From: Lachnospiraceae bacterium
GTDB lineage: Bacteria; Bacillota; Clostridia; Lachnospirales; Lachnospiraceae
NCBI GenBank assembly: GCA_900168235.1
Contig: FUZG01000002.1
Span: forward strand, 248,001-312,000
Length of the DNA stretch: 64,000 nucleotides
Direction: 5' to 3'
Within the stretch, counting starts at the first letter, position 1. Every line of letters starts with the position of its first letter. The translations under genes were made by a program, and so were the position numbers. Below are positions 22,641 through 57,970 of this stretch, one piece after another. The notes under the pieces were generated by a model that did not search any database, was not told the DNA's origin, and worked only from the letters and a program-made list of their open reading frames with translations.

Positions 22641-22730
22641 GAAACAAGTTACGCTAGGCTCGACAAAACCTCGCCAAGCGAACTTGCATAACACGCACTA
22701 AGCTCGAAAATACCTCGCTAAGTGCTCCGA
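22641..22730 (+). repeat. Dispersed terminator-adjacent repeat, long form, copy 1
   Basis: A 90-bp element beginning GAAACAAGTTACGCTAGGCT and ending CTAAGTGCTCCGA. It is identical over all 90 bp to the reverse complement of 57881-57970. It consists of two diverged half-units (CTCGACAAAACCTCGC and CTCGAAAATACCTCGC). Its GCTCCGA end abuts an A-rich stretch that is the T-run of the minus-strand terminator at 22740-22774. Confidence 0.95.
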
Positions 22731-22739
22731 AAAATAAAA

Positions 22740-22774
22740 AGAAGTCCGTGTCACAACTGCTGACACGGACTTCT
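22740..22774 (-). terminator. Terminator of the FliD-like gene
   Basis: AGAAGTCCGTGTCA pairs perfectly with TGACACGGACTTCT (14 bp, 7-nt loop). The T-run (TTTTTATTTTT) follows on the minus strand, so it serves the leftward FliD-like gene. Confidence 0.88.
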
Positions 22775-22813
22775 AATTGCTTGAATCTATCATTAATACC
22801 TATGCCTTTCTTC

Positions 22814-24112
22814 TTAACAGAATCCTGAAAAGAGCATCCCGGTGTACATGCTTGAAATATAAGGGTTCGGGTAATTACTTCCCGGTTTTTTGTAGGCGAT
22901 GATCTTTCTGTTAGTGTACTGCATCGGATCTAAGGAGATCCGTTTGGTCTCTGACATAAGCGCATCGGTAAACTGCTGGATCGCGGAAAGCGACTTTTTG
23001 GGATCTGATTCCTTGGCGGTGGATTTAAGGAGATCATCATCTATCGCAAGTGTTCCATCTTTCTGCATATTGAGACCGACTGCATCAAGAGCTCTCGTAT
23101 ACGGTCTTGTGAGCCGTCCCATTTCCCGCATGATCTTGTCGGACTTCCCGTAATTCTCTGTATATTCGCTTGCCCTGCGGATAAAATCATTATACGCTCC
23201 TGCAAGGTTGTTTATATTTTCTGTAAGTGCATCGAGATCCGGCTTTAATCCTATCTGTACAGGAGGGCTTTCGTCGGCGCTCACGCCGGTAAGCGTCAGC
23301 TCGAAGGATCTCTGGACTGTGAAGCTGTTTGATTTCGCGGTCCGCTCTGTGCCGTTTATGGTAAATATGGCATTGGTAGGTTCGTGAGCCACAGAATTCA
23401 ATCCGAAATATTTGACTGCACCCCGCGCTTTGCTGGAATCCTCGTCGGTTATACGGAAGTTCATGTTTCCGTCGGATCTGATGCCCGTTGCAGAACTTTC
23501 GAGGCGGATGGCGCATGTGCCCTCGCCGGATATGACTGAAGCATTCAAACCTATAGAGGATCTGTTTATCAGGCGGCTTATCCTGTTTGCTACCACTTCG
23601 TTAGTATCATTGTCGGCTACCGAAAACTGGAACTCATAATCAGCATCATTGATAAAAACATCAAATGAATACAGATCGGATTTCAGACCGCATGAAGAAC
23701 CGTTTGGCAGAAACGCACCTATATTTAACTGGGGCGATGCCAGCTGCTGTACGGATATCTCGAAGGAACTCAACCCGTTCTCGGAATTATTGGAGCCGAC
23801 ATACTCTGCCTTTACAACGTCTGTATCAGAAGAAGACGCAACTTTCTTATCTAAAATACTTGAGGAGTAGTCTGAGCTTAACGAAGAAATAGAGTTTTTG
23901 AGCGAACGGGCGCCCTCTTTCAGACCAATAGCATAGAGCTGAGAAGCTCCGGTGCGGTCCGTAAGGTACACAGGAGAGTCCTCAGACTGCCTGACTATCT
24001 GGTGGTAGATAGATTTGAGCTCATCCTTTTTATGGGAATCATAGCGCGTCGATGCAACGCTCTGTTCCGAAAAGAACTGGCTGTAGATTGAGGATAAAGC
24101 CAAAGCTGACAT
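22814..24112 (-). CDS. Divergent FliD-like protein
   Basis: A 432-residue protein. It lacks the usual FliD start (SGMDTSTIV) but keeps the overall pattern: helical ends, a Ser/Asn/Asp-rich middle, AYNDFIRRASEYTENYGKSDKIMREMGRLTRPYTRALDAVGLNMQKDGTLAIDDDLL near residues 310-370, which resembles the FliD_C region (the part before the C-terminal helix), and no clear signal peptide. The C-terminal heptad helix of true FliD is missing; it ends SSMYTGMLFSGFC. Its strong ribosome site (GGGAGGGAT) supports expression. It is probably an alternative cap-like or adhesive flagellar protein; no sigma-28 element was seen upstream. Confidence 0.65.
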   Translation of the reverse strand: MSALALSSIYSQFFSEQSVASTRYDSHKKDELKSIYHQIVRQSEDSPVYLTDRTGASQLYAIGLKEGARSLKNSISSLSSDYSSSILDKKVASSSDTDVVKAEYVGSNNSENGLSSFEISVQQLASPQLNIGAFLPNGSSCGLKSDLYSFDVFINDADYEFQFSVADNDTNEVVANRISRLINRSSIGLNASVISGEGTCAIRLESSATGIRSDGNMNFRITDEDSSKARGAVKYFGLNSVAHEPTNAIFTINGTERTAKSNSFTVQRSFELTLTGVSADESPPVQIGLKPDLDALTENINNLAGAYNDFIRRASEYTENYGKSDKIMREMGRLTRPYTRALDAVGLNMQKDGTLAIDDDLLKSTAKESDPKKSLSAIQQFTDALMSETKRISLDPMQYTNRKIIAYKKPGSNYPNPYISSMYTGMLFSGFC

Positions 24113-24430
24113 AGGATCCCTCCCTTCGTTAATTTTCCTTCCGTGGAAAACGATGTCAGCATACCTGCATGTGAGTATGCGGGAAGCGCATATAAAATGT
24201 AAAAATTTACGACTTTTTATGCGTATGTGTAATGTTACAGTTCGTATTTAAAAATGTATACACTGATATAATGATAAGATAACAGATATAAGTAACAAAA
24301 ACAATATAGAAATGTGTACAAAATACAATACTTGCACAGAATTTCTATTTGTGTTATAAATTCGGAGGTAACGTTGCTGTAGGTATTGCACTGACAGTGC
24401 AGATGTGTTGCCTCAGCAGTAAAAATAGCG
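24113..24430. other. Intergenic region between the FliD-like gene and the rpmG promoter
   Basis: AT-rich from about 24190 to 24330. It contains two small inverted repeats (GCATAC/GTATGC near 24156-24178 and CGCATATAAAA/TTTTATGCG near 24188-24224), which could bind a regulator of the leftward gene. No gene or known RNA was recognised. Confidence 0.4.
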
Positions 24431-24459
24431 TTGACGGATGCACAGCCATATGGTATAGT
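24431..24459 (+). promoter_or_regulatory. Sigma-A promoter of the rpmG-secE-nusG operon
   Basis: TTGACG (24431-24436), 17-bp spacer, TATAGT (24454-24459). The transcript would begin near 24466 and carry a leader of about 115 nt. Confidence 0.75.
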
Positions 24460-24469
24460 GTTAGAGCTA

Positions 24470-24562
24470 AAGGGCCGAGGGGCCTTTTTTTGGTGTCCAA
24501 TAACGCAGCGGGAGACAGTTTTACTGTCGATGGAACCGCCAGTCGGGAGAAATCCCGCCACT
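24470..24562 (+). other. Structured leader before rpmG
   Basis: Directly after the predicted start point: an imperfect AAGGGCC/GGGGCCTT hairpin followed by seven T residues; then GACAGT-TTT-ACTGTC; then CGGGA-GAAA-TCCCG with a GNRA tetraloop. The first could act as an attenuator, the others may be a protein-binding leader. No match to a named RNA family was recognised. Confidence 0.4.
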
Positions 24563-24580
24563 AAGAATGGAGGAATTACA

Positions 24581-24730
24581 ATGCGTACAAGAATCACACT
24601 TGCTTGCACAGAGTGCAAGAATCGTAACTACAATACTACAAAGGATAAGAAGACCCATCCTGAAAGAATGGAAATCCGTAAGTATTGCAAGTTCTGCAAG
24701 ACGCATACTACACATAAAGAGACCAAATAA
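24581..24730 (+). CDS. rpmG: Ribosomal protein bL33
   Basis: A 49-residue 50S subunit protein starting [17 protein letters not shown]. Two CXXC pairs (CTEC near the start, CKFC near the end) show the zinc-binding form. Longer in-frame starts upstream lie in the leader and lack ribosome sites; the ATG at 24581 has AATGGAGGAAT. The order rpmG-secE-nusG is standard in Firmicutes. Confidence 0.97.
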
Positions 24731-24760
24731 TTTTCCGCGGATTGAAAGGCAGGGTATTTA

Positions 24761-25000
24761 ATGAGTGATTCAGTAAATGCAACAAATGCTGCTTCCAAAT
24801 CCGAGAAGAAGTCCAAAGATACGGGGAAGGGTTCTTTCTGGAAGGGAATCAAGGCTGAGTTCAGAAAAATCGTTTGGCCTGATCGCAGTACTTTGATCAA
24901 GGAATCCACAGCAGTTATTGTAGTGTCTGTGGTGGTTGGTGCAGTTATTGCAGTGATCGACAGAGCAGTTCTCTACGGGATTAATTTCCTGATAAAGTAA
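24761..25000 (+). CDS. secE: Preprotein translocase subunit SecE
   Basis: A 79-residue single-span protein. The conserved cytoplasmic amphipathic stretch GIKAEFRKIVWPDRSTLIKES precedes one transmembrane helix (VIVVSVVVGAVIAVIDRAVLYG). SecE clamps SecY in the general secretion channel. It sits between rpmG and nusG as usual. Confidence 0.96.
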   Translation: MSDSVNATNAASKSEKKSKDTGKGSFWKGIKAEFRKIVWPDRSTLIKESTAVIVVSVVVGAVIAVIDRAVLYGINFLIK

Positions 25001-25012
25001 GAAAGGATTTCT

Positions 25013-25540
25013 ATGGCTGAAGAAGCGCACTGGTACGTAGTACACACATATTCAGGATATGAAAATAAGGTAAAGGTCGATCTTGAAAAGACGATCGAGA
25101 ACCGAAACCTTCAGAACGAGATTCTTGAAGTAAGGGTCCCGACTCAGGCTGTAACAGAAGTCAGAGCCAACGGTACAAAGAAGTCTGTGGAAAGAAAGCT
25201 TTTCCCTGGCTATGTACTGATCAATATGTTCATGAATGACGATACCTGGTATGTTGTTCGTAACACCAGGGGCGTTACAGGGTTCGTAGGACCGGGAAGT
25301 AAGCCGATCCCGTTATCTGACGAGGAAATGAAGCCGCTTGGTATCCATGTTGAAAATACGGTTGTCAACTTTGATGTAGGTGATCGTGTTGCTGTAGTTG
25401 CAGGAGCATGGAAAGATACAGTAAGCGTAATTTCCAAGATGGATCTGAACAAGCAGACCGCTACTATTTCGGTTGAGCTGTTCGGAAGGGAAACACCTGT
25501 GGAGATCAGTTTTGACGAGATTTCCAAGATAGCTGATTAA
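25013..25540 (+). CDS. nusG: Transcription elongation and termination factor NusG
   Basis: A 175-residue NusG. The N-terminal RNA-polymerase-binding domain starts HWYVVHTYSGYENKVKVDLEK and includes LFPGYVLINM, and the C-terminal KOW domain is seen as VGDRVAVVAGAWKDTVSVI. It links RNA polymerase to Rho or the ribosome. It follows secE by 12 bases. Confidence 0.97.
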   Translation: MAEEAHWYVVHTYSGYENKVKVDLEKTIENRNLQNEILEVRVPTQAVTEVRANGTKKSVERKLFPGYVLINMFMNDDTWYVVRNTRGVTGFVGPGSKPIPLSDEEMKPLGIHVENTVVNFDVGDRVAVVAGAWKDTVSVISKMDLNKQTATISVELFGRETPVEISFDEISKIAD

Positions 25541-25682
25541 AGAGTATTACTCTTTTCAGATGATATATGATGTGTGGTGAATTAAAGTGCCTATGGCATT
25601 TTAAGATAGATACAGTGGGAGGGTCTTTCCTGCCCGCATTACCACAAACGGCAGAAATGCCAGTTTAATAAGGAGGCTAAAA
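25541..25682 (+). promoter_or_regulatory. nusG-rplK spacer / L11 leader
   Basis: A 142-nt spacer. Near 25585-25604, AAAGTGCC/GGCATTTT forms an 8-bp stem with a TAT loop that could partly terminate the nusG transcript. The region GTGGGAGGG ... CCTGCCCGC follows and may be the L1 autoregulatory site expected in this operon; that is inference from the known biology of rplKA. Confidence 0.35.
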
Positions 25683-26108
25683 ATGGCTAAGAAAGTCGAA
25701 GGATACATTAAGTTACAGATCCAGGCCGGCAAAGCTACACCTGCACCGCCGGTTGGTCCTGCACTTGGACAGCATGGTGTAAACATCGTTGAGTTCACAA
25801 AGCAGTTCAACGCTAAGACAGCAGATAAGGGTGATTACGTTATCCCTGTTGTTATCACAGTTTACTCAGATAGAAGTTTCACATTCATCACAAAGGAGCC
25901 GCCTGCAGCAGCACTTATCAAGAAGGCCTGCAAGCTTCAGAAGGCTTCTGGTGTTCCGAATAAGAACAAGGTTGCAACCCTTTCAAAGGCTGATCTCGAG
26001 GAAATCGCTAAGAGAAAGATGCCTGACCTCAACGCTGCTTCCCTTGAGGCTGCAATGAGCATGATCGCCGGCACCGCTAGATCCATGGGTGTCGAGGTAG
26101 AGAAGTAA
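25683..26108 (+). CDS. rplK: Ribosomal protein uL11
   Basis: A 141-residue stalk-base protein. The proline-rich N-terminus ([26 protein letters not shown]) and the C-terminal rRNA-binding part ([26 protein letters not shown]) are canonical. It contacts the GTPase centre of 23S rRNA. It is 13 bases before rplA. Confidence 0.98.
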
Positions 26109-26121
26109 GGAGGGTTCAACG

Positions 26122-26811
26122 ATGAAACACGGAAAGAAATATGTTGAAGCTGCAAAGGCTATCGAGCGTGCAAAGCTGTATGAGCCCGCTGAGGCTATGG
26201 AGCTTGTAAAGAAGGCTGCTACAGCTAAGTTTGATGAGACTATCGAAGTTCACGTTAGAACCGGTTGTGATGGACGTCACGCTGATCAGCAGGTACGTGG
26301 TGCGGTTGTACTTCCTCACGGAACAGGCCGTAGCGTAAAGGTTCTCGTATTCGCTAAGGGCGCTAAGCTTGACGAAGCTCAGGCAGCTGGTGCTGATTAT
26401 GTTGGCGGCGAGGAGCTTATCCCGAAGATCCAGAATGATGGATGGCTTGATTTCGACGTTGTAGTTGCTACACCTGATATGATGGGTGTTGTAGGACGTC
26501 TCGGTAAGGTTCTCGGACCTAAGGGTCTCATGCCGAACCCGAAGGCTGGAACAGTTACTATGGATGTAACAAAGGCTATCAACGATATCAAGGCTGGTAA
26601 GGTTGAGTACAGACTTGACAAGGCTAACATCATCCACGTTCCGGTTGGTAAGGCTTCTTTCACTTCTGAGCAGCTTACAGAGAACTTCAACGCTCTGCTT
26701 GCAGCACTTGAAAAGGCTAAGCCGTCATCTGTTAAGGGTCAGTACCTTAAGAGCATTTCTGTAGCTCCTACAATGGGCCCTGGCGTAAAGGTTATCGCTA
26801 ACAGATATTAA
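26122..26811 (+). CDS. rplA: Ribosomal protein uL1
   Basis: A 229-residue L1. Hallmarks: [51 protein letters not shown] and the C-terminal [12 protein letters not shown]. It binds the L1 stalk of 23S rRNA and, in many bacteria, its own mRNA leader. Unlike the usual layout, rplJ and rplL do not follow; a terminator and a dispersed repeat come next. Confidence 0.98.
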
Positions 26812-26860
26812 TTGAATCCGAAAAATCCGTGAAGCAATGAGCGGGTTTTGAGAATAGAAA

Positions 26861-26895
26861 CTGCCGTATGGAAGAGATTCCGTACGGCAGTTTTT
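26861..26895 (+). terminator. Rho-independent terminator after rplA
   Basis: CTGCCGTATGGAA (26861-26873) pairs with TTCCGTACGGCAG (26878-26890), 13 bp with one G-U and a GAGA tetraloop, followed by T5. Confidence 0.92.
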
Positions 26896-26901
26896 GTTGT
26901 G

Positions 26902-26945
26902 CGGAGCACTTGGCGAGGTATTCTCGAGCCTAGCGTAACCTGCTT
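26902..26945 (-). repeat. Dispersed terminator-adjacent repeat, short form, copy 2
   Basis: A 44-bp form, inverted relative to copies 1 and 3. Its reverse complement contains TTACGCTAGGCTCGA and AAGTGCTCCG; it differs from copy 3 at about 5 of 44 positions. It starts 6 bases after the T-run of the rplA terminator, and its far end supplies part of the ohrR -35 region. Confidence 0.88.
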
Positions 26946-26972
26946 GACAAAACGAGCAAAAAAGCATAATTT
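26944..26972 (+). promoter_or_regulatory. Candidate promoter of the MarR/OhrR gene
   Basis: Perfect TTGACA (26944-26949), 17-bp spacer, TAATTT (26967-26972). The -35 box begins at the very end of repeat copy 2. Confidence 0.6.
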
Positions 26973-26987
26973 AATTGTAAACAATTA
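26972..26987. promoter_or_regulatory. Candidate MarR/OhrR operator
   Basis: Inverted repeat TAATTG-TAAA-CAATTA overlapping the end of the -10 box. The AATTG/CAATT half-sites resemble known OhrR operators. Its position fits autorepression of the MarR gene and MATE pump. Confidence 0.5.
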
Positions 26988-27039
26988 TTAAGAAAAATGC
27001 TGACAACTGATTGGCAGTTTTTAAACACAGGAGTGGGAT

Positions 27040-27498
27040 ATGGGTGAATCTCGGAAATATGATTGTTTGAAGCTCGAAAACCAGATCTGTTTTCCATTAT
27101 ATGCGTGCGCAAAGGAAATAGTTCGGAAGTATAAACCATTTCTTGATAAGCTGGATCTGACTTACACCCAGTACATCACCATGATGATACTGTGGGAAAA
27201 GAAGCAGTCAAATGTTAAGGAACTGGGAAAGAAGCTTTATCTTGATTCAGGTACGCTTACTCCGTTATTAAAGAAGCTCGAGTCAAAGGGCTACATCAGC
27301 AGACAGCGTTCTGAAAGAGATGAAAGAAACTTAATAGTTACTATCACTGATGATGGAATGAAGCTCAGGGAGCGTGCACTGGAAGTTCCTTCAAAGATGG
27401 GACGGTGCGTGAGCTTAAGCGATGAGCAGGCAGAACTGCTCTATAATACACTGTATCAGATTCTCGGAAGCCTGGACGGTTCAGAGGAAAAACAGTAA
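27040..27498 (+). CDS. MarR family regulator, OhrR type
   Basis: A 152-residue winged-helix repressor. The N-terminal LKLENQICFPLYACAKEI carries the OhrR signature, with Cys17 at the position of the peroxide-reactive cysteine; the tyrosine-containing LDLTYTQYITMMILWE and the wing SERDERNLIVTIT also match. OhrR proteins sense organic hydroperoxides and normally control ohr; here the next gene, 26 bases on, is a MATE pump and no ohr is present. It probably represses itself and the pump through the palindrome at 26972-26987. Confidence 0.85.
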   Translation: MGESRKYDCLKLENQICFPLYACAKEIVRKYKPFLDKLDLTYTQYITMMILWEKKQSNVKELGKKLYLDSGTLTPLLKKLESKGYISRQRSERDERNLIVTITDDGMKLRERALEVPSKMGRCVSLSDEQAELLYNTLYQILGSLDGSEEKQ

Positions 27499-27524
27499 CA
27501 ACATCCTTAGGGATAGAGGCGAGT

Positions 27525-28889
27525 ATGACTAAGAACATGACGGCAGGAAAGCCACTGCCTTTGATCCTGCGGTTTGCATTACCGCTCCTGCTCGGAAATC
27601 TCTTCCAGCAGGCATATAATCTGGTTGATGCAGCGATCGTGGGACAAACACTGGGCACAGATGCACTGGCAGCAGTAGGTGCATCCAGCAGTGTCCAGTT
27701 TCTTGTACTGGGCTTTTGTATTGGGATATGTCTTGGCTTTTCGATTCCGGTGGCGCATCGGTTTGGAGCGGGTGATCATCATGGAATGAGGCTGTATATA
27801 TTTCATGGGATGATATGGTGCATAATAACCGCGATACTTCTCACAACGCTGAATGTTGTGCTGTGTTCGCAGATCCTGCACATTTTGGAGACCCCTTCGG
27901 ACATATTTGAAAATGCATACAGGTATCTTTTGGTTATATTTTTAGGGATACCGTTTACACTTCTCTACAATTTTTTGTCAGGTGTCCTACGGGCAGTCGG
28001 GGACAGCAGGACTCCGTTCTTATTTCTGGCTCTGTCTACCGTTTTGAATATAATCCTTGATTTCTTCTGTATCCTAAGGATGCACTGGGGATGCATGGGC
28101 GCAGGTATAGCAACTGTTGTTGCCCAGGCGGTGTCAGGAATCCTGTGTCTCATACTAATAATTAAAAAGTTTGAGATCCTGCATTTCAGGGCTGAGGATA
28201 TGAAGTGGGACACCCGTATCGGGATAAATGCCATAAAAATGGGACTTCCCACAGGGCTTCAGTATTCCATAACAGCCATAGGAAGCATGGTGATGCAGGC
28301 TGCAAATAACGGTCTTGGAACTGTGTATGTATCTGCATTTACAGCAGGTATGAAGATAAAGCAGTTTGCCATGTGTCCTTTTGATGCGCTTGCAACATCG
28401 GTGTCCACATTTGCAGGACAAAATTATGGAGCGGGAAAAATTGACCGTGTAAAGAAGGGAATCCTTCAGGGTGCGCTGACAGGTATTGTATATGGTCTGA
28501 TGATAGGACTTGTGCTGATATTCGGCGGACGCTATCTATGTATGCTTCTTGTCCATGCAGGGGAAAGTGCCGTACTGGATCAGGCGGGTAAGTACCTGAG
28601 ATATCTGGGATGCTTCTACTGGGCGCTTGGAATATTAAATGTATGCCGTATGAGTATTCAGGCTTTGGGACATTCAGGGAAGGCTGTTTTGTCCGGAGTA
28701 CTGGAAATGATCGCGAGAGTTGTGGTCAGCTTCGTATTTGTGCCGATATACGGCTTTACGGCGATCTGCCTGTCAGATCAGAGCGCATGGCTTCTTGCTT
28801 GCTGTTACGTAGCACCAATGTCCATATGGTGCATACACAGGGCAGAGCATCATATACTTGGCAAGAAAAAGAGGGAACAAAAAGTATAG
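27525..28889 (+). CDS. MATE family efflux transporter
   Basis: A 454-residue, 12-span membrane protein in two similar halves. The start PLILRFALPLLLGNLFQQAYNLVDAAIVGQTLGTDALAAVGAS is the MATE signature, and SGVLRAVGDSRTPF and the second-half ALATSVSTFAGQNYGAGK also fit. MATE pumps export cationic or polyaromatic compounds using Na+ or H+. It is co-transcribed with the OhrR-type regulator, which points to a role in exporting toxic or oxidised compounds. Confidence 0.94.
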   Translation: MTKNMTAGKPLPLILRFALPLLLGNLFQQAYNLVDAAIVGQTLGTDALAAVGASSSVQFLVLGFCIGICLGFSIPVAHRFGAGDHHGMRLYIFHGMIWCIITAILLTTLNVVLCSQILHILETPSDIFENAYRYLLVIFLGIPFTLLYNFLSGVLRAVGDSRTPFLFLALSTVLNIILDFFCILRMHWGCMGAGIATVVAQAVSGILCLILIIKKFEILHFRAEDMKWDTRIGINAIKMGLPTGLQYSITAIGSMVMQAANNGLGTVYVSAFTAGMKIKQFAMCPFDALATSVSTFAGQNYGAGKIDRVKKGILQGALTGIVYGLMIGLVLIFGGRYLCMLLVHAGESAVLDQAGKYLRYLGCFYWALGILNVCRMSIQALGHSGKAVLSGVLEMIARVVVSFVFVPIYGFTAICLSDQSAWLLACCYVAPMSIWCIHRAEHHILGKKKREQKV

Positions 28890-28925
28890 AGTATATTAGG
28901 GACGAGTATTAACGGGGGTTTAACA

Positions 28926-29630
28926 ATGATAAGAATAGCGGCTTGTGACGACGAAGACCGATGCCTGAATAATATACGTGATCTATTTGATGCGTATATA
29001 AAGGAACATCCGGAATGTGACGCTTCCATTGAATTATTCAATTCTACGCTGGATTTCATGGGAGCGAGAGAGAAGAGGCGTTTTGATGCATATATCCTGG
29101 ATATTTACATTGATGCCCAGAGCGGGATAGATCTCGCAGAGTCTATCAGAAAAGATGATGAAAAAGCTGTGATCATTTTTTTGACCACATCTGAATTTCA
29201 TTATAAAGATGCATTCCGGTTGAATGCTGCACATTACCTTGAAAAACCCATTGATCCAAAAGAGTTTGCAGATGCAATGGGACGGGTTTTGAAAGCAGGA
29301 AACGAGCGGTATTATGCAGTGAAGGATGGTGACGGTATCCACAGGATCCCGGTAAATGACATCCTGTATGTAATGAGCGAAGACCACTATAAAGACATAG
29401 TATGCAGAGACGGTGCAGCCTATCTTGTCCGCGAGACAATGGCTAATATCATGGAAGGCCTGGGTGAGGAAAACTTTTACCTGCTCAGTAATAAGCTCAT
29501 TATAAATCTGAAAAAAATACTGACTATCAGCTCTGCGGAGGTGACTATGGAGGACGGCAGGAGATTTTCTCTGCCGAGGGGCAGCTACAGGGCAGTCAGT
29601 GACCTGTTCCTGAAATATTCATTTGAATGA
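28926..29630 (+). CDS. LytTR response regulator (AgrA/VirR type)
   Basis: A 234-residue response regulator. The receiver domain (residues 1-120) has the acidic pair in ACDDED, the phospho-acceptor Asp59 in AYILDIYID, and Lys in LEKPI. The C-terminal 100 residues form a LytTR DNA-binding domain (IPVNDILYVMSEDHYKDIV ... FYLLSNKLIINLKKI ... RFSLPRGSY). LytTR proteins bind paired 9-bp direct repeats. A 21-bp-period direct repeat lies upstream of the histidine kinase gene that follows. Confidence 0.92.
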   Translation: MIRIAACDDEDRCLNNIRDLFDAYIKEHPECDASIELFNSTLDFMGAREKRRFDAYILDIYIDAQSGIDLAESIRKDDEKAVIIFLTTSEFHYKDAFRLNAAHYLEKPIDPKEFADAMGRVLKAGNERYYAVKDGDGIHRIPVNDILYVMSEDHYKDIVCRDGAAYLVRETMANIMEGLGEENFYLLSNKLIINLKKILTISSAEVTMEDGRRFSLPRGSYRAVSDLFLKYSFE

Positions 29631-29699
29631 TCTCAGGACAGAACAGCATCATATATGTGCAATGGTATATTGTATACGCATTGTATGTATAAAAAAACA

Positions 29700-29731
29700 G
29701 AACTCGACATAAAAAAACATGAACGCGACAT
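29700..29731 (+). promoter_or_regulatory. Direct repeats, candidate LytTR binding site
   Basis: GAACTCGACAT (29700-29710) and GAACGCGACAT (29721-29731) are direct repeats differing at one base, with a 21-bp period (two helical turns), the spacing typical of LytTR sites. They lie about 50 bases before the kinase ATG. Confidence 0.5.
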
Positions 29732-29781
29732 TCTTAATTTAACGTAATGAATTGATGGTATGTTATACATGAAGGACAGGT

Positions 29782-31083: not shown

Positions 31084-31128
31084 GAAGTAAACTTGTGACA
31101 CGTTGTCGTTCGACGCAGGAGAGAAACT

Positions 31129-31902: not shown

Positions 31903-31932
31903 GACTAAAAAATGGGGGAGTTTTTTATAAGC

Positions 31933-36167: not shown

Positions 36168-36212
36168 AAACAAGTTACGCTAGGCTCGACAAAACCTCGC
36201 TAAGTGCTCCGA
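36168..36212 (+). repeat. Dispersed terminator-adjacent repeat, short form, copy 3
   Basis: Same orientation as copy 1. It equals copy 1 with the segment between its two ACCTCGC direct repeats removed, as expected from recombination between the half-units. It begins immediately after the GGDEF-EAL stop codon and ends at the A-rich T-run of the hairpin at 36221-36249. Confidence 0.92.
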
Positions 36213-36220
36213 AAATAAAA

Positions 36221-36256
36221 GTGAAGGCTCCGGTGATCGGGACCTTCACTTTTTTA
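36221..36256 (+). terminator. Bidirectional terminator
   Basis: GTGAAGG (36221-36227) pairs with CCTTCAC (36243-36249), with T6 after it on the plus strand and an A-rich stretch before it (T-run for the minus strand). Confidence 0.78.
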
Positions 36257-47159: not shown

Positions 47160-47167
47160 CAGTCCAA

Positions 47168-48729: not shown

Positions 48730-48731
48730 TA

Positions 48732-49697: not shown

Positions 49698-49732
49698 AAA
49701 ATCCTGCCATTGAAAACAGTGGCAGGATTTTT
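49696..49732. terminator. Bidirectional terminator
   Basis: AAAAATCCTGCCA and TGGCAGGATTTTT form a perfect 13-bp stem; T-runs occur on both strands. It separates the CPBP gene from the leftward yjfB-like gene. Confidence 0.9.
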
Positions 49733-49755
49733 GCGTTCAATATGAAATTTAGTGT

Positions 49756-49944: not shown

Positions 49945-49965
49945 GTGAGCACCTCCTTCTGTTGA

Positions 49966-51456
49966 TTACTGACTGATCGGATCCGCCCGATAGAGATCAA
50001 AGGAATACCGATCAAAGGAAATATGTTCTATATATTGCATATTGTATCCAAAGGTGTGCGCTTCCTCAAGTTCTTTTTTAAAGCCATCAACGGCGAAATA
50101 CCACACAGTTCCCTTTGTTTCGCGGGCTGACTCCCAATCATATTTTTTTAGATCAGGATAATAGTAGCGGAAGCAGTTCTCGATTTGATAACTGTTTTCG
50201 TAAATTATATATCCGTCGTCAGGACCCAGATTCTCGTCAAAAAATGCGGTCATTTCGTCAACGCCTTTTGCGTACTCAGACTTAAACTGGGAAGTGTAGG
50301 TCACTATTCCTGTTATAACGATGAGGAATATTATTATCGAAGTCATTATGGGTTTCAGGTACTTGATCTTAGGAATATTCTGCACGTCGTATGACAGAAG
50401 TACGGCAACCCCCAGCCAGAAAACTCCGAGGGACGGTACAAGGTAACGCGCCGTGAACATGCTTGAGCCCGCAAGGATAGAAACTGCATATCCGAAAAAC
50501 AGAGTGGCATAAAAAACTGCTGCGAAGATAAGTCCTGCAAGAGCAGTGCTGTTCTTTAACGCAGGCTGAGGCAGAATATTCTCTGCGAAAATATGTAACA
50601 GTCCTGAAAAGATCGCATCTGCGGCTAAAAGAAGGATGAGTGCTGACAGAACCGTAAAGTGCGTTACAAACGGGAATCTCAAGTCGCTTAAAAATGAGTG
50701 GACTGTGAGCGGAGTCATTGAAAAATAGCTGCTTGCATTTTTTATCTGATATACGGTAAGGAGCCCGCAGGGGAAGTACAGTACAAATGTACAAAAAAGT
50801 GACAGTGCCCAGGGACGTAACCTCTTAAATACTGACTCCGGCATATCCTGTTTTTTATGCATGAGTCCGGGGAATATCAGCAGTATCAGCGTGAAAAGCC
50901 AGAGCATGCCTGCGCTGACAAATGCAAAATGATGTACATATCCGGAAAGCACAGTGAAGAATGTGAACAGTGCCCAGTATTTTTTCCTGCCTGAACTTAA
51001 TGCATAGTGCGCGAAGACTGCGGCACCTGTGACGCAGAAGATTCCCCAGCTGTACATGCGGATCTCAACTGCATAGTAATAAAAATTCGGCATGGACAGG
51101 AGAAATGCCATGAAAAGTGCGGATGTGAGCGTACCGAACTGTCTGCGGACAGGGAACGCTCCGAGTATGAGGGCACCTATCATAGGGAGCACCGAGCCAA
51201 ATTTCATGACGGGAGCAGAGTATCCAAAGAGGACAGTCAGAGCTTTTCCGAAGAAGTTATAGAAGGGCGGGAGCGTATCCGCAGCGGTCCGTGACCAGAC
51301 TTCGGGCAGCGGGCACCTGATTATGGATGCGGTGAAAGCCTCGTCAACCCAGAGGTTATTGTTGAATATCAGCGAGATATACACGGCTGCACCAAGGAGT
51401 ACAGTGACTGCAAAAAATAGATCAATTTTGTTGTTAGATATTTTATTCGTATTCAT
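49966..51456 (-). CDS. GT39/ArnT-like membrane glycosyltransferase
   Basis: A 496-residue protein with 10-12 membrane spans. The first extracytoplasmic loop has the acidic motif NNNLWVDEAFT and DTLPPFYN, which is typical of the GT-C superfamily (ArnT, PMT, GT39/GT83), where the Asp-Glu pair is catalytic. These enzymes transfer a sugar from a lipid phosphate carrier on the outer face. Acceptor and donor unknown. No ribosome site; the ATG follows an extended -10 box by 7 nt (see the promoter entry), so the transcript may be leaderless. Confidence 0.87.
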   Translation of the reverse strand: MNTNKISNNKIDLFFAVTVLLGAAVYISLIFNNNLWVDEAFTASIIRCPLPEVWSRTAADTLPPFYNFFGKALTVLFGYSAPVMKFGSVLPMIGALILGAFPVRRQFGTLTSALFMAFLLSMPNFYYYAVEIRMYSWGIFCVTGAAVFAHYALSSGRKKYWALFTFFTVLSGYVHHFAFVSAGMLWLFTLILLIFPGLMHKKQDMPESVFKRLRPWALSLFCTFVLYFPCGLLTVYQIKNASSYFSMTPLTVHSFLSDLRFPFVTHFTVLSALILLLAADAIFSGLLHIFAENILPQPALKNSTALAGLIFAAVFYATLFFGYAVSILAGSSMFTARYLVPSLGVFWLGVAVLLSYDVQNIPKIKYLKPIMTSIIIFLIVITGIVTYTSQFKSEYAKGVDEMTAFFDENLGPDDGYIIYENSYQIENCFRYYYPDLKKYDWESARETKGTVWYFAVDGFKKELEEAHTFGYNMQYIEHISFDRYSFDLYRADPISQ

Positions 51457-51463
51457 AGGTGAT

Positions 51464-51472
51464 ATTATAACA
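51464..51472 (-). promoter_or_regulatory. Extended -10 promoter of the GT39 gene
   Basis: On the minus strand TG-T-TATAAT, ending 7 nt before the ATG at 51456. It is divergent from the rightward promoter at 51490-51519. Confidence 0.5.
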
Positions 51473-51489
51473 CTTGGCGGGTTATAGAT

Positions 51490-51519
51490 TTGTGTTGCAG
51501 ACTGATTTTATGGTATAAT
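51490..51519 (+). promoter_or_regulatory. Promoter of the WecG/TagA-like gene
   Basis: TTGTGT (51490-51495), 18-bp spacer, extended -10 TG-G-TATAAT (51514-51519). The leader is about 105 nt. Confidence 0.6.
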
Positions 51520-51629
51520 TCCTTAAATTGAAAATGTATCTGAAACAGGACAAAATACTGTGTTCAGAAATAAGACGGTGCGTCAGGCTCATGCGGAGGG
51601 CAGGCTGAAGCGCACAGGGCGGAGAACCT

Positions 51630-52346
51630 ATGAGAGCGATCAGTGTTCTTGGAATCAGCCTTAGGGATTATTCCGTTAGGGAAGCAATGAGAAGGGTGAC
51701 ATTGTTCCTAAATAACGGGATATGCAATACGGTTGATTTCATAACTCATGACGATCTTCTTAAAGCAACGGATTCGGCAGAACTTAAAAGGGCGCTTGAG
51801 GAAATGGATCTTACCGTATTTACGGCGGGAGATATCCTTCAGGCAGGCAACATCATCAGTCACAGCAGAGAACGGGAAATTGAAAGTAATCTTTTCCTGA
51901 AGGGGCTTTTACGTAAGCTCGCAAAGGAGAAGCGCAGGATATTTATCGTTTCTACGGAGAGTGACAAATTAAAGAAATTTGAGGACTCCCTTATCGGCTT
52001 TGAGAAGGAACTGAATATTATCGGGCGGTGTGCGGTAGACGAAACGGTCGGAGGCAGTGATGCGGTCGTGAACGAAGTGAATGACAGTCTTCCGGACGCT
52101 CTTTTCCTGAACCTCGGAACTCCTGATGCAGAGTTTTTTATCCAGTCAGGCAGGATGAAGCTCAACACTCCTCTTATCGTTGCGATGGGTGACGTATGCT
52201 TCCGCGTGACTGAAAACGGCAGTGTAAAAAAAGGTGGCATCGGAGCATTTCTTTTAAGACATTTCTTCCATTCTGCAGCAGCACGCTATACCCAGAATAT
52301 GGAAAATGAGCAGGGGCCTTCTGATGAGAATGAGGTAAAATTCTAA
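51630..52346 (+). CDS. WecG/TagA/CpsF-type glycosyltransferase
   Basis: A 238-residue GT26 family protein. The order of motifs fits: VLGISLRDYSVREAMRRV at the N-terminus, a VDFITHDDLLKAT segment, FTAGDILQAG in place of the usual ADG acidic motif, and NLGTPDAEFFIQSG with PLIVAMGDVC. The usual catalytic Asp of ADG may be changed. The family adds ManNAc or similar sugar to a lipid carrier in wall-teichoic acid or exopolysaccharide synthesis. No ribosome site of the usual kind was found; GGCGGAGAACC precedes the ATG. Confidence 0.75.
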   Translation: MRAISVLGISLRDYSVREAMRRVTLFLNNGICNTVDFITHDDLLKATDSAELKRALEEMDLTVFTAGDILQAGNIISHSREREIESNLFLKGLLRKLAKEKRRIFIVSTESDKLKKFEDSLIGFEKELNIIGRCAVDETVGGSDAVVNEVNDSLPDALFLNLGTPDAEFFIQSGRMKLNTPLIVAMGDVCFRVTENGSVKKGGIGAFLLRHFFHSAAARYTQNMENEQGPSDENEVKF

Positions 52347-52487
52347 CAGAACACCCTGATACTGCATGTTGCATAAAAAAGTTGTCTTTTCTCTTCCTAT
52401 TTTTGTCTTTTTGTATTAAAATATAATAGCATTGTGGGGAAAGTGTCAAAAGTGTGGGGGCATTTTTGCACAAAAAGGAGAAGGAAC

Positions 52488-53579
52488 ATGATTTCTAATC
52501 AGATTTTACAGAACACAGTAGATGGTTTAAAGAACATCACCAGGATCGATATGTGCGTTATGGATACGGAAGGAAAGAACCTTGCGTCTACTTTTCGTGA
52601 CTTCAGTGCGTCTGACAAGGATGTGATGAGCTTCGCATCTTCCCCGGCAGACAGCCAGGAGATCCGCGGATATCAGTTTTTTAAGATCCATGATGATGAC
52701 GGACAGTTAGAGTATATCCTTATCGCTAACGGCGGTACTGATGATGCGTATATGATCGGCAAGATCGCAGCATTCCAGATCCAGAATCTTCTCGTTGCTT
52801 ACAAGGAGCGTTTTGACAAGGATAACTTTATCAAGAACCTGCTGCTGGATAACCTTCTGCTGGTTGATATTTTCAACAGGGCAAAGAAGCTTCATATCGA
52901 GACAGATGTTAAGCGTGTAGTAATGCTCGTTGAGGCAGAGAGTGAAAATAACACAACAGCACTGGAGAGTGTAAGATCTTTCTTTGGAACTCATACAAAG
53001 GATTTTGTTACGGCTGTTGATGAAAAGAACGTTATCATCGTGAAAGAGCTCGAGGATGACGATCTTGCAGCGGAGATCACTACTGCGGCACAGAACCTTC
53101 TGGATGCTATCCGCCGTGAGAACAGATTCCGTGCGCGCATCGCATATGGAACAGTCGTATCCGAGATCAAGGATGTGAGCCGTTCCTATAAAGAAGCAAA
53201 GATGGCTCTTGATGTAGGTAAGATCTTCTTCGAGGAAAGGGATGTAGTTGCATACAGCTCCCTTGGAATCGGACGACTCATCTACCAGCTTCCTATACCT
53301 CTTTGTAAGATGTTCATTAAGGAAATCTTCGGAGGCCGTTCACCGGAAGAATTTGATGATGAGACACTTGCGACCATCAATAAGTTCTTTGAGAACTCAC
53401 TTAATGTTTCCGAGACAAGCCGTCAGCTTTATATCCACCGTAATACGCTCGTTTACCGTCTGGATAAGTTGCAGAAGACAACAGGTCTCGACCTCAGGGT
53501 ATTTGAGGATGCGATAACATTTAAGATCGCTCTTATGGTTGCAAAGTACATGAAATATATGGAAACGTATAACTTCTGA
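52488..53579 (+). CDS. CdaR/PucR-type transcriptional regulator
   Basis: A 363-residue regulator. The N-terminal domain resembles the sugar-diacid sensor of CdaR; the C-terminal 60 residues (ETSRQLYIHRNTLVYRLDKLQKTTGLDLRVFEDAITFKIALM) are the PucR-type helix-turn-helix. Members activate catabolic genes, and sugar diacid, purine or amino-acid targets are known. No target gene is obvious nearby, so it may be a global or autoregulated factor. The ATG at 52488 has AAGGAGAAGGA; a frame opening at 52434 lacks one. Confidence 0.86.
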   Translation: MISNQILQNTVDGLKNITRIDMCVMDTEGKNLASTFRDFSASDKDVMSFASSPADSQEIRGYQFFKIHDDDGQLEYILIANGGTDDAYMIGKIAAFQIQNLLVAYKERFDKDNFIKNLLLDNLLLVDIFNRAKKLHIETDVKRVVMLVEAESENNTTALESVRSFFGTHTKDFVTAVDEKNVIIVKELEDDDLAAEITTAAQNLLDAIRRENRFRARIAYGTVVSEIKDVSRSYKEAKMALDVGKIFFEERDVVAYSSLGIGRLIYQLPIPLCKMFIKEIFGGRSPEEFDDETLATINKFFENSLNVSETSRQLYIHRNTLVYRLDKLQKTTGLDLRVFEDAITFKIALMVAKYMKYMETYNF

Positions 53580-53610
53580 TAGATTTTCTGAAGATTTTAT
53601 GATTTTTTAG

Positions 53611-53657
53611 TCTGCGGGGCGAAAATGGCGGCTGGTCTGCTGATTTTGCCCCGCAGA
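53611..53657 (+). terminator. Hairpin between the CdaR-type gene and ftsE
   Basis: TCTGCGGGGC (53611-53620) pairs perfectly with GCCCCGCAGA (53648-53657); A-rich and T-rich inner flanks extend it. No T-run follows, so it is a moderate terminator or attenuator. Confidence 0.6.
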
Positions 53658-53718
53658 TATGTTATTATAAAACACGAAGAATAGAGGGGTAATACGAAAT
53701 AATAAGGGAATCGTTGAT

Positions 53719-54405
53719 ATGATTATTTTAGAAGATGTGAGCAAATCCTATTCTACAGGTGCTCCGGCGTTGGACAATATCAGTCTCCATGTCGAAAAGG
53801 GCGAATTCGTTTTTATCGTTGGCGATAGCGGATCCGGCAAGTCTACCTTGATAAAGCTTCTGCTGCGTGAGCTTACTCCCAGCAGCGGAAAGATCATCGT
53901 AAATCACACAGACGTAGCAAAACTTAAGCACAGCCGTATCCCGAAGTACCGTCGTGGTATCGGGGTCGTTTTCCAGGACTTCCGTCTGCTGAAAGACAGG
54001 AATGTTTATGAGAATGTTGCTTTTGCGCAGAGAATACTTGCAGTTCCTGTGCGTCAGATCCGTAAAAATGTTCCCAGTGTTCTTTCGCTTGTGGGACTTG
54101 CGGAGAAGTACAAGAGTAAACCTCGTGAGCTGTCCGGAGGTGAGCAGCAGAGAGTGGCGCTTGCGCGTGCCATCATAAATAAGCCGCCGATCCTCCTCGC
54201 GGATGAGCCTACCGGTAATCTCGATCCGAAAAACTCATGGGAGATCATGAAGCTCCTTGAGCAGATCAATAAAAATGGTACTACAGTACTCGTCGTTACA
54301 CATAATCGGGAGATAGTCAACGCCATGCAGAAGCGTGTTATCACCATGAAAAAGGGCGTTATTGTAAGCGATCAGAAAAAGGGCGGTTATATCGATGAGG
54401 ATTAG
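53719..54405 (+). CDS. ftsE: Cell division ATP-binding protein FtsE
   Basis: A 228-residue ABC ATPase: Walker [10 protein letters not shown], signature [14 protein letters not shown] and Walker [13 protein letters not shown]. The start [30 protein letters not shown] and [21 protein letters not shown] are FtsE-specific. With FtsX it couples cytoplasmic ATP use to peptidoglycan hydrolase activation at the septum. It overlaps ftsX by 11 bases. Confidence 0.97.
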
Positions 54406-55294
54406 TACATTCTTTTACTCTCTTGGACAGGGTATCAAAAATATCTGGAGAAACAAGATGTTTTCTCTGGCAACTATTGCAACCATTTCTGCATGTGTTT
54501 TTCTTTTCGGACTGTTCTATGCTATAGTTCTGAATTTTTCAAATATCGTGCGTCAGGCTCAGACGGGTGTTGCTGTTACAGTATTTTTCGATGAGGGCAT
54601 ATCCGATGAGCAGATACAGTCGATCGGAACCGAGATAAGCAAAAGAGCTGAGGTATCCAAGATCGTATTCGTATCAGCGGAAGAAGCCTGGAAATCCTTT
54701 AAGGAGGAGAATCTGGGCGATTATGTAGATTCTTTCGGAGATGACAATCCTCTTGCAGAAGATTCAAACTATGAGATCTACATGAATGATATCTCGATGC
54801 AGGAGAATCTGGTTGAATATCTGGAAGGACTTGACGGCGTTCGTACGGTCAGAAAATCAGCCATCGTGGCAAATATGCTGACAAGCGTAAATTCCCTTAT
54901 CGGAATAGTGTCGCTGGGCATCATCCTGATACTTCTCGCAGTATCCATATTCCTTATCAGCAACACAGTTGCTCTTGGTATCACGGTACGAAAAGAAGAG
55001 ATAGCTATCATGAAGCTTATAGGAGCAACGGATTTCGTTGTCCGTGCACCCTTCGTATTTGAGGGAATGTTACTAGGACTTGTCGGTGCTTCACTCCCGC
55101 TTGTTGCTATCTACATTATCTATCAGAAAACGGTCGTTTATCTTGTGGAACGGTTCAAGATCCTGGATTCGCTGCTGCAGTTCCTGTCCATCAACCAGAT
55201 TTTCAGTACGTTAGTACCGGTCGCTCTGATCCTTGGAGTCGGTATCGGTTTCCTGGGCAGCTTCACGACAGCAAGAAAGCATCTTCGTGTATGA
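54395..55294 (+). CDS. ftsX: Cell division protein FtsX
   Basis: A 299-residue membrane protein. Four transmembrane segments (near residues 22-44, 173-195, 220-245 and 265-290) surround a large extracellular loop (about 45-170), which in the family contacts the wall hydrolase. The N-terminal SLGQGIKNIWRNKMFSLATIATISACVFLFGL is the family signature. It is coupled to ftsE and to the M23 peptidase gene (ATGA overlap). Confidence 0.96.
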   Translation: MRISTFFYSLGQGIKNIWRNKMFSLATIATISACVFLFGLFYAIVLNFSNIVRQAQTGVAVTVFFDEGISDEQIQSIGTEISKRAEVSKIVFVSAEEAWKSFKEENLGDYVDSFGDDNPLAEDSNYEIYMNDISMQENLVEYLEGLDGVRTVRKSAIVANMLTSVNSLIGIVSLGIILILLAVSIFLISNTVALGITVRKEEIAIMKLIGATDFVVRAPFVFEGMLLGLVGASLPLVAIYIIYQKTVVYLVERFKILDSLLQFLSINQIFSTLVPVALILGVGIGFLGSFTTARKHLRV

Positions 55295-56559
55295 TAAAAA
55301 AAATATTGCTGCTATTCATGGCTTTCGCCATCATGACAACTTCAGCTTCACTTACTTTTTCAAGGGGTGAAGTCTGCGCTGCGGCTAATAAAGAGGGAGA
55401 AGAGAAGAAAAGCTCTTCTTCCTCTTCTTCACTTACGAATGAATCTATAAAAAAGAAGCAGGAGCAGGTGTCGGAGACAAAGAAGGAGAAAGATGCGCTG
55501 AAGGCAGGAAGTGCCAGCATGGAAAAAGAGGTCGATGCTCTTGAGGAAGCGCGTTCAGCTGTCGAAACAACAATAAGAGAGCTCGATGCGAAGTCAGCAG
55601 ATACGCAGGAAGCTATCGAAAAACTGGATGTCTCCATCAGTGAAAACGAAGCCGCTATAGAAAATGCGAAAAAAGAAGTCCATGAAGCTGAGAAAGAGGT
55701 AAAGAGCCAGTACGATGCCATGAAAAAGCGTATACGTTTCATGTATGAGGCAGGAAACACTACGCTTCTGGAGATAGTCATATCCAGCACGAACTTTGGC
55801 AATTTTTTGAACAATGTGGTCTATGCTGAGAAGATAGTGTCCTACGATGAAGAAAAGCTTTCAGAGTTTAAGAAATCACAGGAAAAGCTTGAAAATGCCC
55901 AGCTGAAGCTTGAGACCAAGCAGGAAGCTTTAGAAAAGAACCGTGAAGAACAGCAGGCAAAGGCTGACGAGCTGGATGCTGTCATGGCTGAGAAAGCAAC
56001 TCAGGTTCACCAGTATGAAGCTCTTATCGGTACAAAGGAACAGCAGATCCAGGAGTACAAAAATATGATCGCAGCAGCTGATGCTGAGATCAATGCGCTC
56101 GAAGCAGCTATAGCTGCGGAGAAGCAGGCTCTGGCTGCGGCAAATAAGACTGCAAGGACCTATGACGGAGGAATGTTCGCATTTCCTGCGCCGTCCTATA
56201 CACGTATTTCTGATGATTACGGTATGCGCATGCATCCGACTCTTGGAGTGGAGATGATGCATAATGGAATCGATCTCGCAGCACCTGCAGGATCACCCAT
56301 TCTTGCCGCATATGACGGAACTGTGGCGGCAGCGGCTTATTCCGCATCAATGGGAAATTATGTTATGATTGATCATGGAAGCGGTCTCATAACGATCTAC
56401 ATGCATGCTTCGTCACTAAGCGTATCAGCAGGGCAGAGTGTGACTAAGGGGCAGAAGATAGGAGCAGTCGGTTCGACCGGACGCAGTACCGGACCGCATC
56501 TGCATTTTGGCGTCCGTAAAAACGGATCATACGTCAGCCCATGGAATTATCTGGGGTGA
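55291..56559 (+). CDS. EnvC-like M23 peptidase, coiled-coil
   Basis: A 422-residue secreted or membrane-attached protein. After a signal-like hydrophobic start, residues 30-285 form a long coiled coil, as in EnvC and the clostridial/streptococcal FtsEX partners (PcsB, CwlO). The C-terminal LytM/M23 domain has zinc ligands HNGID and HLHFG and the GMRMHPTLG motif, all intact, so it may be an active endopeptidase unlike E. coli EnvC, which lacks zinc ligands. It overlaps ftsX by 4 bases, fitting activation by FtsEX. Confidence 0.93.
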   Translation: MIKKILLLFMAFAIMTTSASLTFSRGEVCAAANKEGEEKKSSSSSSSLTNESIKKKQEQVSETKKEKDALKAGSASMEKEVDALEEARSAVETTIRELDAKSADTQEAIEKLDVSISENEAAIENAKKEVHEAEKEVKSQYDAMKKRIRFMYEAGNTTLLEIVISSTNFGNFLNNVVYAEKIVSYDEEKLSEFKKSQEKLENAQLKLETKQEALEKNREEQQAKADELDAVMAEKATQVHQYEALIGTKEQQIQEYKNMIAAADAEINALEAAIAAEKQALAAANKTARTYDGGMFAFPAPSYTRISDDYGMRMHPTLGVEMMHNGIDLAAPAGSPILAAYDGTVAAAAYSASMGNYVMIDHGSGLITIYMHASSLSVSAGQSVTKGQKIGAVGSTGRSTGPHLHFGVRKNGSYVSPWNYLG

Positions 56560-56611
56560 GGGTAATATTAAGGGATTTCGATCCCGGTGAAATAAAGGCA
56601 GGATATAAAAA

Positions 56612-57835
56612 ATGAAGAAATTAGGGTTTGGCGCAGGCTGCATAACAGGGCTTTTGGCAGCTGCAGGTCTGCTGCTGTTGGTATTTTTCGGAAACGCAGG
56701 ATTTAATCTTGTTTCCGGTAAAGGATTCAAGAAAGATGAGAGCAGCCAGCTTTTATCAAGGGATGTACAGAATAAGCTGAGTTTTCTGAATGAGATAATC
56801 GATGCATATTATGTAAACTATAAAGATGATGAAGCCGGAATGACGGATGAAGAGAGGATAGAAGGTATTTACAAGGGTCTCGTTGATTCCTTAAATGATC
56901 CCTATTCCGAGTATTATACAGAGGAGGAGTATAAACAGCTTTCAGAGGCTACAAACGGTTCTTTTCAGGGTATAGGCGCGACACTGAGCCAGAATGAAGC
57001 AACAGGTGAAAATTCCATAGTTGGTTTCACGGCAGGATCGCCTGCGGAGGCTTCAGGATTAGAGGTCGGCGATATTTTTTATAAGGTTGACGGTGAGCCC
57101 GTCGGTGATATGAAGCTCACGGATCTCGTAAAAAAGGTTCGCGGTAAAGAAGGAACTCAGGTCACGCTTACCATGCTCCGAGGCGAGGATCGTCATGAAG
57201 TTGAGTTTACTGTTACCAGACAGTCTATCGATATAATGACAGTTTCATCCAACATGATCGACAAGGACACAGGATATATGATCCTTGGTCAGTTTGATGC
57301 AGTGACTCCCGGACAGTTCCATGAGGGGCTGGAGAATCTGAAGAAACAGGGCATGAAGAAGTTTATCCTGGATCTCAGAGGAAATCCCGGCGGAAATCTG
57401 GATGCCTGCGTGGAGATAGCGGACGAACTCCTTCCTGACGGCAGAATAGTTTATACACTCGATAAAGCAGGTAACGAGAAGGACTATGACGGAAACGATG
57501 GCAAGGCGCTGAATATGCCTCTCGTAGTCCTTGTTGACGGAAATTCCGCAAGTGCATCCGAGATACTTGCGGGTGCCATAAAGGATACGAAAGCAGGCGT
57601 GCTTGTGGGAAGCACCACTTTTGGAAAAGGTATCGTGCAGAATGTGTACGGCATCGGAGACGGAAGTGCCATCAAGATCACAGCCGCAAAATATTACACA
57701 CCCAACGGAGTAAATATCCAGGGAACAGGAATCGAGCCTGACGTAAAAGTGGATTTTGATTCTGAGAAATATCTGGAAAACAGATACGATAACCAGCTTG
57801 AAGAAGCAAAGAAACAGATAAAGAAGATGAAATAA
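56612..57835 (+). CDS. ctpA: S41 C-terminal processing peptidase
   Basis: A 407-residue membrane-anchored protease. One N-terminal transmembrane segment, then a PDZ domain (IVGFTAGSPAEASGLEVGDIFYKVDGEPV) and the S41 catalytic region with the Ser in DGNSASASEILAGAI and the Lys in TTFGKGIVQ. It degrades or processes extracellular proteins and often follows ftsEX-envC in Clostridia, where it may control the hydrolase level. Ribosome site near AAAGGCAGG. Confidence 0.95.
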   Translation: MKKLGFGAGCITGLLAAAGLLLLVFFGNAGFNLVSGKGFKKDESSQLLSRDVQNKLSFLNEIIDAYYVNYKDDEAGMTDEERIEGIYKGLVDSLNDPYSEYYTEEEYKQLSEATNGSFQGIGATLSQNEATGENSIVGFTAGSPAEASGLEVGDIFYKVDGEPVGDMKLTDLVKKVRGKEGTQVTLTMLRGEDRHEVEFTVTRQSIDIMTVSSNMIDKDTGYMILGQFDAVTPGQFHEGLENLKKQGMKKFILDLRGNPGGNLDACVEIADELLPDGRIVYTLDKAGNEKDYDGNDGKALNMPLVVLVDGNSASASEILAGAIKDTKAGVLVGSTTFGKGIVQNVYGIGDGSAIKITAAKYYTPNGVNIQGTGIEPDVKVDFDSEKYLENRYDNQLEEAKKQIKKMK

Positions 57836-57841
57836 GATAAT

Positions 57842-57876
57842 GGGACTGTTGAAGCAATATCAACAGTCCCGTTTTT
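57842..57876 (+). terminator. Terminator after ctpA
   Basis: GGGACTGTTGA pairs perfectly with TCAACAGTCCC (11 bp), 7-nt loop, then GTTTTTG. Confidence 0.9.
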
Positions 57877-57880
57877 GTTT

Positions 57881-57970
57881 TCGGAGCACTTAGCGAGGTA
57901 TTTTCGAGCTTAGTGCGTGTTATGCAAGTTCGCTTGGCGAGGTTTTGTCGAGCCTAGCGTAACTTGTTTC
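57881..57970 (-). repeat. Dispersed terminator-adjacent repeat, long form, copy 4
   Basis: Reverse complement identical to copy 1 (22641-22730) over all 90 bp. It begins 4 bases after the T-run of the ctpA terminator and runs into the stop codon of the leftward methyltransferase gene (57969-57971). Confidence 0.95.

Follow-up and report, generated by a model that had tools for sequence, protein, structure and literature searches.

Group IIC introns insert after terminator hairpins. Among insertion sequences (IS), IS608 inserts 3' of TTAC, which is retained in its left flank, and guide sequences 5' of each of its hairpins base pair with the cleavage sites (accessible part of PMC5934647); the accessible parts of further papers cover the hairpins, trans-acting TnpA and PATE-like forms of IS605 (PMC7290912), the definitions of REPINs, built from repetitive extragenic palindromic (REP) sequences, and of RAYTs (PMC3116915, PMC2817692), and miniature inverted-repeat transposable elements (MITEs) with modular short intergenic repeats (PMC10969869). 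Here we describe a dispersed element, 43 bp long with a single hairpin and up to about 87 bp with two, in a 64,000-nucleotide stretch of DNA from a Lachnospiraceae bacterium (GenBank assembly GCA_900168235.1, contig FUZG01000002.1, positions 248,001 to 312,000 of the forward strand; hereafter the window), where its copies follow intrinsic transcription terminators. A literature search, limited for most subscription journals, found no account of these elements, and the word 'terminator' does not occur in the accessible part of PMC6006769. We consider it fairly probable that this is a non-autonomous single-stranded DNA (ssDNA) element that acts like an IS200/IS605 end pair.

All four copies reported in the initial annotation were located at its positions in the window. 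The two long ones (22641-22730 and 57881-57970) are mutually inverted and identical at 90/90 bp, a span that includes some flank (the outermost 2 bases on the CAAG side and 1 on the T-run side). With limits set from the boundaries of many copies and window coordinates read off the sequence, the two-hairpin element, whose right end is ...AACTTGTT, occupies 22643..22729 (minus strand; sequence and boundary alignment), and its identical copy 57882..57968 (plus strand). The first is adjoined by the T-run TTTTTATTTTT of an intrinsic terminator hairpin at 22740..22774 (minus strand), which has a homologue with hairpin at the empty site in three relatives (G014, G031 and G009); a terminator hairpin recognized by eye at 57842..57870 (plus strand) lies upstream of the second. 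The short, one-hairpin copy at 26902..26945 (plus strand) belongs to an older subfamily and has the left flank TTGTTGTG; the terminator hairpin before it (26860..26891, plus strand, by eye) has a homologue in the same three relatives, which are element-free there. The other short copy, at 36169..36211 (minus strand), is a hybrid that joins the left portion of hairpin 1 to hairpin 2 and follows a terminator hairpin at 36220..36250 (minus strand, by eye).

The element has spread recently in the source genome (3.79 Mb, 28 contigs), which contains at least 44 matches to the 90-mer, at least 41 of them near-full-length (76-90 bp) and at least 23 copies 100% identical over ≥87 bp; these counts are lower bounds because scoring covered 40 of the 109 candidates from the first look. 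The family therefore extends beyond the window, and confinement to it, which the initial annotation named as grounds for refutation, does not apply. The loop motif occurs at 121 places in this genome and a longer core pattern (1 mismatch allowed) at 140, with no match to the reversed control in either case. Site statistics below are based on the first 100 of the 121 loop-motif places plus the 90-mer matches and window copies, rather than on all 140 core matches; 5 of 77 site groups without a proper left end were dropped before counting, and 72 were kept.

From the terminator side, the long form reads T-run, CGGAGCAC, TTAGC, GAGG-loop-CGA, GCTTAGTGC, GTGTTAT, GCAAGTTCGCTTGGC, GAGG-loop-CGA, GCCTAGCGTAACTTGTT and host sequence. 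Its two hairpins lie on the sense strand in direct orientation relative to each other, which places a hairpin at both ends on the same strand as in IS200/IS605 elements (IS608, ISDra2 and PATE-like derivatives); the one-hairpin forms have one. Each hairpin has a tandem G.A core and, three positions below it, a T.T mismatch. The mismatch is retained in 41 of 42 distinct source-genome hairpins and in 100 of 102 from other genomes, but the latter were for the most part retrieved by a pattern in which the T.T bases are prescribed, so that only the 41/42 counts as independent. Five stem pairs covary, with Watson-Crick pairing in 102, 103, 98, 72 and 63 of 123 as compared with shuffled means of 59, 61, 62, 34 and 29, in a set selected for the T.T and two paired positions and with shuffles that ignore relatedness. 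The right end is sharp (information drops from 1.7 to 0.33 bits past AACTTGTT; 52 ends), and 59 of 61 left ends have T at -4. No terminal inverted repeats were seen in the element, which in this respect, and in its precise position at terminators or promoters, differs from BOX, RUP, SPRITE and other MITEs, known from the partly accessible literature as likewise modular short intergenic repeats.

Copies may have a single hairpin, a pair spaced 44 bp apart, or three or four hairpins in tandem; in another form, the two hairpins are 94/95 bp apart and a 50-nt insert carries a third stem. This insert lies in hairpin 1, with the stem GCAAATC..GATTTGC, at L086, L090, L092, L102, L103, L111, L112, L116 and L122. 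In the source genome two subfamilies can be told apart: the young one follows TTTT, the older one TTGTG or TTATG. The proposal that the short form arose by recombination between two ACCTCGC motifs fits the GCGAGGT repeats 44 bp apart, but in some other short copies the crossover lies beyond the loop, so the exchange point varies. Short length, a mostly extragenic location, many copies, paired hairpins and IS200-related logic would also suit an element of the REP/REPIN type that a RAYT mobilizes. We regard this as improbable, since the hairpin pair is direct rather than inverted, and the best of the five source-genome Y1 proteins scanned reached 37.1 bits with the RAYT model (cut-off 80), with no GTAG head detected by eye.

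At 68 of the 72 source-genome sites, a stable hairpin (≤ -8 kcal/mol; median -21.6) ends 3-14 nt before the element. Such a hairpin precedes 99 of 389 intergenic TTTT/TTGT/TTAT positions of the window (median -3.9), a control that includes real terminators. The sites without a qualifying hairpin are L017 (-6.7 kcal/mol), L024, L073 and L107. The claim that the element always abuts a terminator T-run thus holds for the great majority of sites, with these four exceptions, and the 26902 copy is preceded by TTTTTGTTGTG rather than by a pure T-run. Two cruder scores were replaced by the present one: a simple stem test (63/72 sites, 241/1200 controls) and a second score at -8 kcal/mol (47/72 sites, 37/250 controls) that fixed window widths made too crude. 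The bases before CGGAG are TTTT at 48, TGTG at 13 and TATG at 5 of the 72 sites. Insertion 3' of a fixed T-rich tetra- or pentanucleotide kept in the left flank, with no target duplication visible at element boundaries or in empty-site comparisons, is a further feature of IS200/IS605 elements; divergence blurs the exact joints, so that a short duplication within the T-rich flanks is possible. Other genomes of the genus provided 31 scorable sites, 16 with the source-type left end and 15 with other left ends. A terminator hairpin precedes 15 of those 16, and their left flanks (a slash marking the joint) are TTAT/G at 13 sites, TTTT/C at 2 and TTGT/G at 1.

Comparison with relatives revealed empty sites. 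The window loci at 22643, 26902 and 36169 have no copy in the compared stretches of G014, G031 and G009, and the terminator hairpin is present in all three relatives at the first two loci. At the 36169 locus a hairpin repeat, GGTTTATGGACCTGCACCCC..GTCCCC, occupies the spacer in three relatives (L256, L257 and L258). In G014, the fetched part offered a partner for 10 of the 77 sites; one was a chance match inside a gene, and of the remaining nine comparable loci eight are empty and one has a shared copy. The terminator is visible by eye at six of the eight empty loci; at the remaining ones, the spacer is altered or contains some other repeat. A different dispersed repeat, TGATGACAGGGTCAAAAG..., is found at some element-free loci (L258, about 6900-7100; G014 sites #43 and #47). 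Since the element sits 3' of the T-run, where the terminated RNA no longer reaches, and since species are polymorphic for it, the suggestion that it could be a 3' RNA element finds no support in the source species and its nearest congeners.

A candidate mover is resident in the source genome. Y1 transposases are present there, the five longer Y1 frames scanned being IS200/IS605 transposases, and one IS200 occupies the same niche as the small element: its 5/5 distinct left flanks consist of a terminator followed by TTAT/GGGCTTTAGCC (GGGC), with hairpins of -24.5 to -31.8 kcal/mol before them. Copies at a terminator T-run plus TTAT are L058, L063, L064, L065 and L067 in the source genome and, for the same IS, L326 in G014. 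TTAT and the following G are common to this IS200 and to 13 of the 16 congeneric small-element copies. Two further IS200s, L305 (G227) and L306 (G407), have a terminator ending TTTTTGTG shortly before the left hairpin. Two other Y1 elements showed no terminator by eye at any of seven copies, four in G033 and three in G316, so this niche is not general for Y1 elements. On the right side, guide pairing of the IS200/IS605 kind, between the end and bases 5' of the right hairpin, fits by eye (CAAGTT with AACTTG; ATACC with GGTAT).

These features suggest the following route. The element is inserted on the non-template strand at a terminator T-run, with a T-rich tetranucleotide (TTTT, TTGT or TTAT) immediately 5' of it, and would most likely move as ssDNA, as IS200/IS605 elements do. 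A trans-acting Y1 (HUH) transposase may bind the hairpins, with their T.T mismatch and tandem G.A core, and cleave on the 3' side both of the left flank sequence and of the right end CTTGTT, which would pair with bases 5' of hairpin 2; the excised strand would then be inserted at a matching site. The observations establish the anatomy, the ends, the target, recent spread, empty sites and the target niche shared with the resident IS200; a single-strand route with Y1 as its agent is what we infer. For the source genus we favour Y1: the IS200 niche is shared, and RVT_1 and above-cut-off IS110 are lacking in the source genome. The resident IS200 with this niche makes the question experimentally approachable.

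Other movers were considered. A terminator-seeking retroelement, either of the group IIC kind or driven by a retron, would share with group IIC introns the insertion after terminator hairpins, but the element is too short for a ribozyme, and RVT_1 (E≤0.001) was not found in 4 of 12 motif-rich genomes, namely the source genome, G286, G418 and G227. We rejected a reverse transcriptase as mover as unsupported, and a retroelement is very improbable. IS110 was also rejected: above-cut-off matches were not found in 4 of the 12 genomes, the source genome among them, where the PF01548 match scored 24.8 bits (cut-off 29) in a 1426-aa frame. As for a recurrent neighbour protein at 80 motif loci, the largest clusters appeared by eye to be common sensor and transport genes, no family search having been made.

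Matches to the 90-mer (E≤0.01) were found in 14 of 61 genomes including the source, all of the source genus. The core pattern is more widespread, occurring in 51 of 250 Lachnospiraceae genomes, source included, with the most copies in the source genome. An order-wide search matched 8 of 147 genomes, all 8 Lachnospiraceae, and none of 128 genomes of other families. Among the matches listed in the named collection are Butyrivibrio, Hungatella, Dorea, Acetatifactor, [Clostridium] symbiosum, Robinsoniella and others, and some matching records are titled otherwise or at a higher level (bacterium, Eubacteriales, Clostridiaceae, and one metagenome-assembled genome labelled Bacteroides sp.). There was no element match in viral contigs (strict pattern), plasmids or phages.

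In some relatives the element follows a promoter signal. TATAAT lies upstream of it at 7/7 fetched sites in G286 and 7/8 in G112, at a distance to the CTTRG core of 7 or 8 nt in 13 of 14 cases and 19 nt in one; including G437, a -10 box is present at 27 of 28 sites. For the 27 first-unit -10 boxes, agreement with TTGACA shows a sharp maximum 17 bp away (mean 3.22/6, 13/27 with ≥4), compared with means of 0.67-2.04 at the other spacings from 8 to 27. The 16 inner -10 boxes of tandem units have no TTGACA match above 3 at spacings 16-18. Distances of 2 to the -10 box reflected a second near-match, TATGAT, and were corrected in the redone measurement. At five named promoter-class loci, a -35 of ≥4/6 was not found; 195 of 1205 control TATAATs have one. 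At one orthologous promoter, the element-free form in the congener G437 reads CATGGTAGAAT/AAAAATC, while the filled one reads TATGGTATAAT/element...GGTACAAT/AAAAGC.

The element could also be read as a structured RNA or DNA with a function of its own, which gene conversion or selection has spread and which forms a 5' hairpin where it follows a promoter and a post-terminator hairpin elsewhere. In line with this, the G286, G112 and G437 copies stand directly after the -10 box, with a start codon preceded by a ribosome-binding site within 250 nt at 24 of 27; the core structure is conserved family-wide; and the copy after the EF-Tu gene (below) is common to two species. Source-genus copies, however, lie outside the terminated transcript, are polymorphic and recently identical, and have exact ends, and Rfam gives no family at the element: only a tRNA reached the gathering score in the window, and at 8 element loci nothing appeared at the element at E≤1, and so no known structured-RNA family. 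This reading is unlikely in our judgement. Returning to an ssDNA element, we raise tentatively the idea that minimal elements of this kind form a superfamily across the Lachnospiraceae and insert in step with transcription: the enzyme would take the exposed non-template strand of the bubble, at the T-run in one species group and at the -10 box in others, and a few bases next to the hairpins would determine the target. The element would then be a mobile one that finds its sites by transcription signals, at gene ends in one lineage and at promoters in others. This would offer a testable case of how an ssDNA transposon chooses safe or regulatory sites, and of how a family of very small elements can reshape the 5' leaders of genes in Lachnospiraceae of the gut and rumen.

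Several observations weigh against an ssDNA element mobilized by Y1 at transcription signals. Neither a T-run nor a -10 box is present at 74 of 85 named-set sites, 4 of 5 sites in G316 fall into the class 'other', and congeneric sites with other left ends, which are more distant copies, have a hairpin before 7 of 15. The proposal of a mobile non-autonomous element targeting terminators is supported for the source species and nearest congeners, with their empty sites bearing a terminator, sharp ends and recent identical copies, and does not carry over to the more distant copies of the genus and family. A two-hairpin copy directly after the stop codon of a gene that we take, from its C-terminal residues, to be EF-Tu is common to the source species and G014 (L130, G000:C19 near 336450, and its orthologue in G014 C3; flanks about 95% identical), and L053 of G009 shares its upstream sequence. 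Unlike IS200/IS605 elements, the family measures 43-87 bp only, and no autonomous tnpA-bearing copy with these ends was found in the fetched DNA; six hairpin pairs 130-3500 bp apart were inspected for one, and in three of them the longest frame looks by eye like an ordinary gene. In the stretches fetched around Y1 genes, reaching up to 1.5 kb on either side, the core motif (≤2 substitutions) was found at 0 of 11 source-genome loci and at 0 of 30 loci from 8 other genomes, these 30 being taken from 37 matches. The element hairpins are by eye unlike the ends of the resident IS200, left-flank guide pairing is not evident in the source genus, and Y1_Tnp (E≤0.001) was not found in 4 of the 12 motif-rich genomes (G286, G168, G221 and G418). 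Since Y1, RVT_1 and above-cut-off IS110 are each missing from 4 of these 12, some other enzyme may move the element. We hold this to be a less probable but appreciable alternative: copies in enzyme-free genomes may be relics, and the source genome has Y1 and an IS200 that uses the shared niche.

Some 'other' copies outside the source genus lie within long inverted repeats. At L178 (119-7315), L143, L144, L146, L152 and L186, the core hairpin stands in the middle of units of about 110 bp with long, locus-specific, near-perfect inverted repeats (to about 60 bp, by eye). These units carry a GAGCGAAAGCG-like side hairpin, and three on one contig have near-identical cores and different arms. A further, GCAYTGARYACTTRGCGAGG-like arrangement, often clustered, occurs near tRNA or gene ends at L184, L161, L202, L206 and L217.

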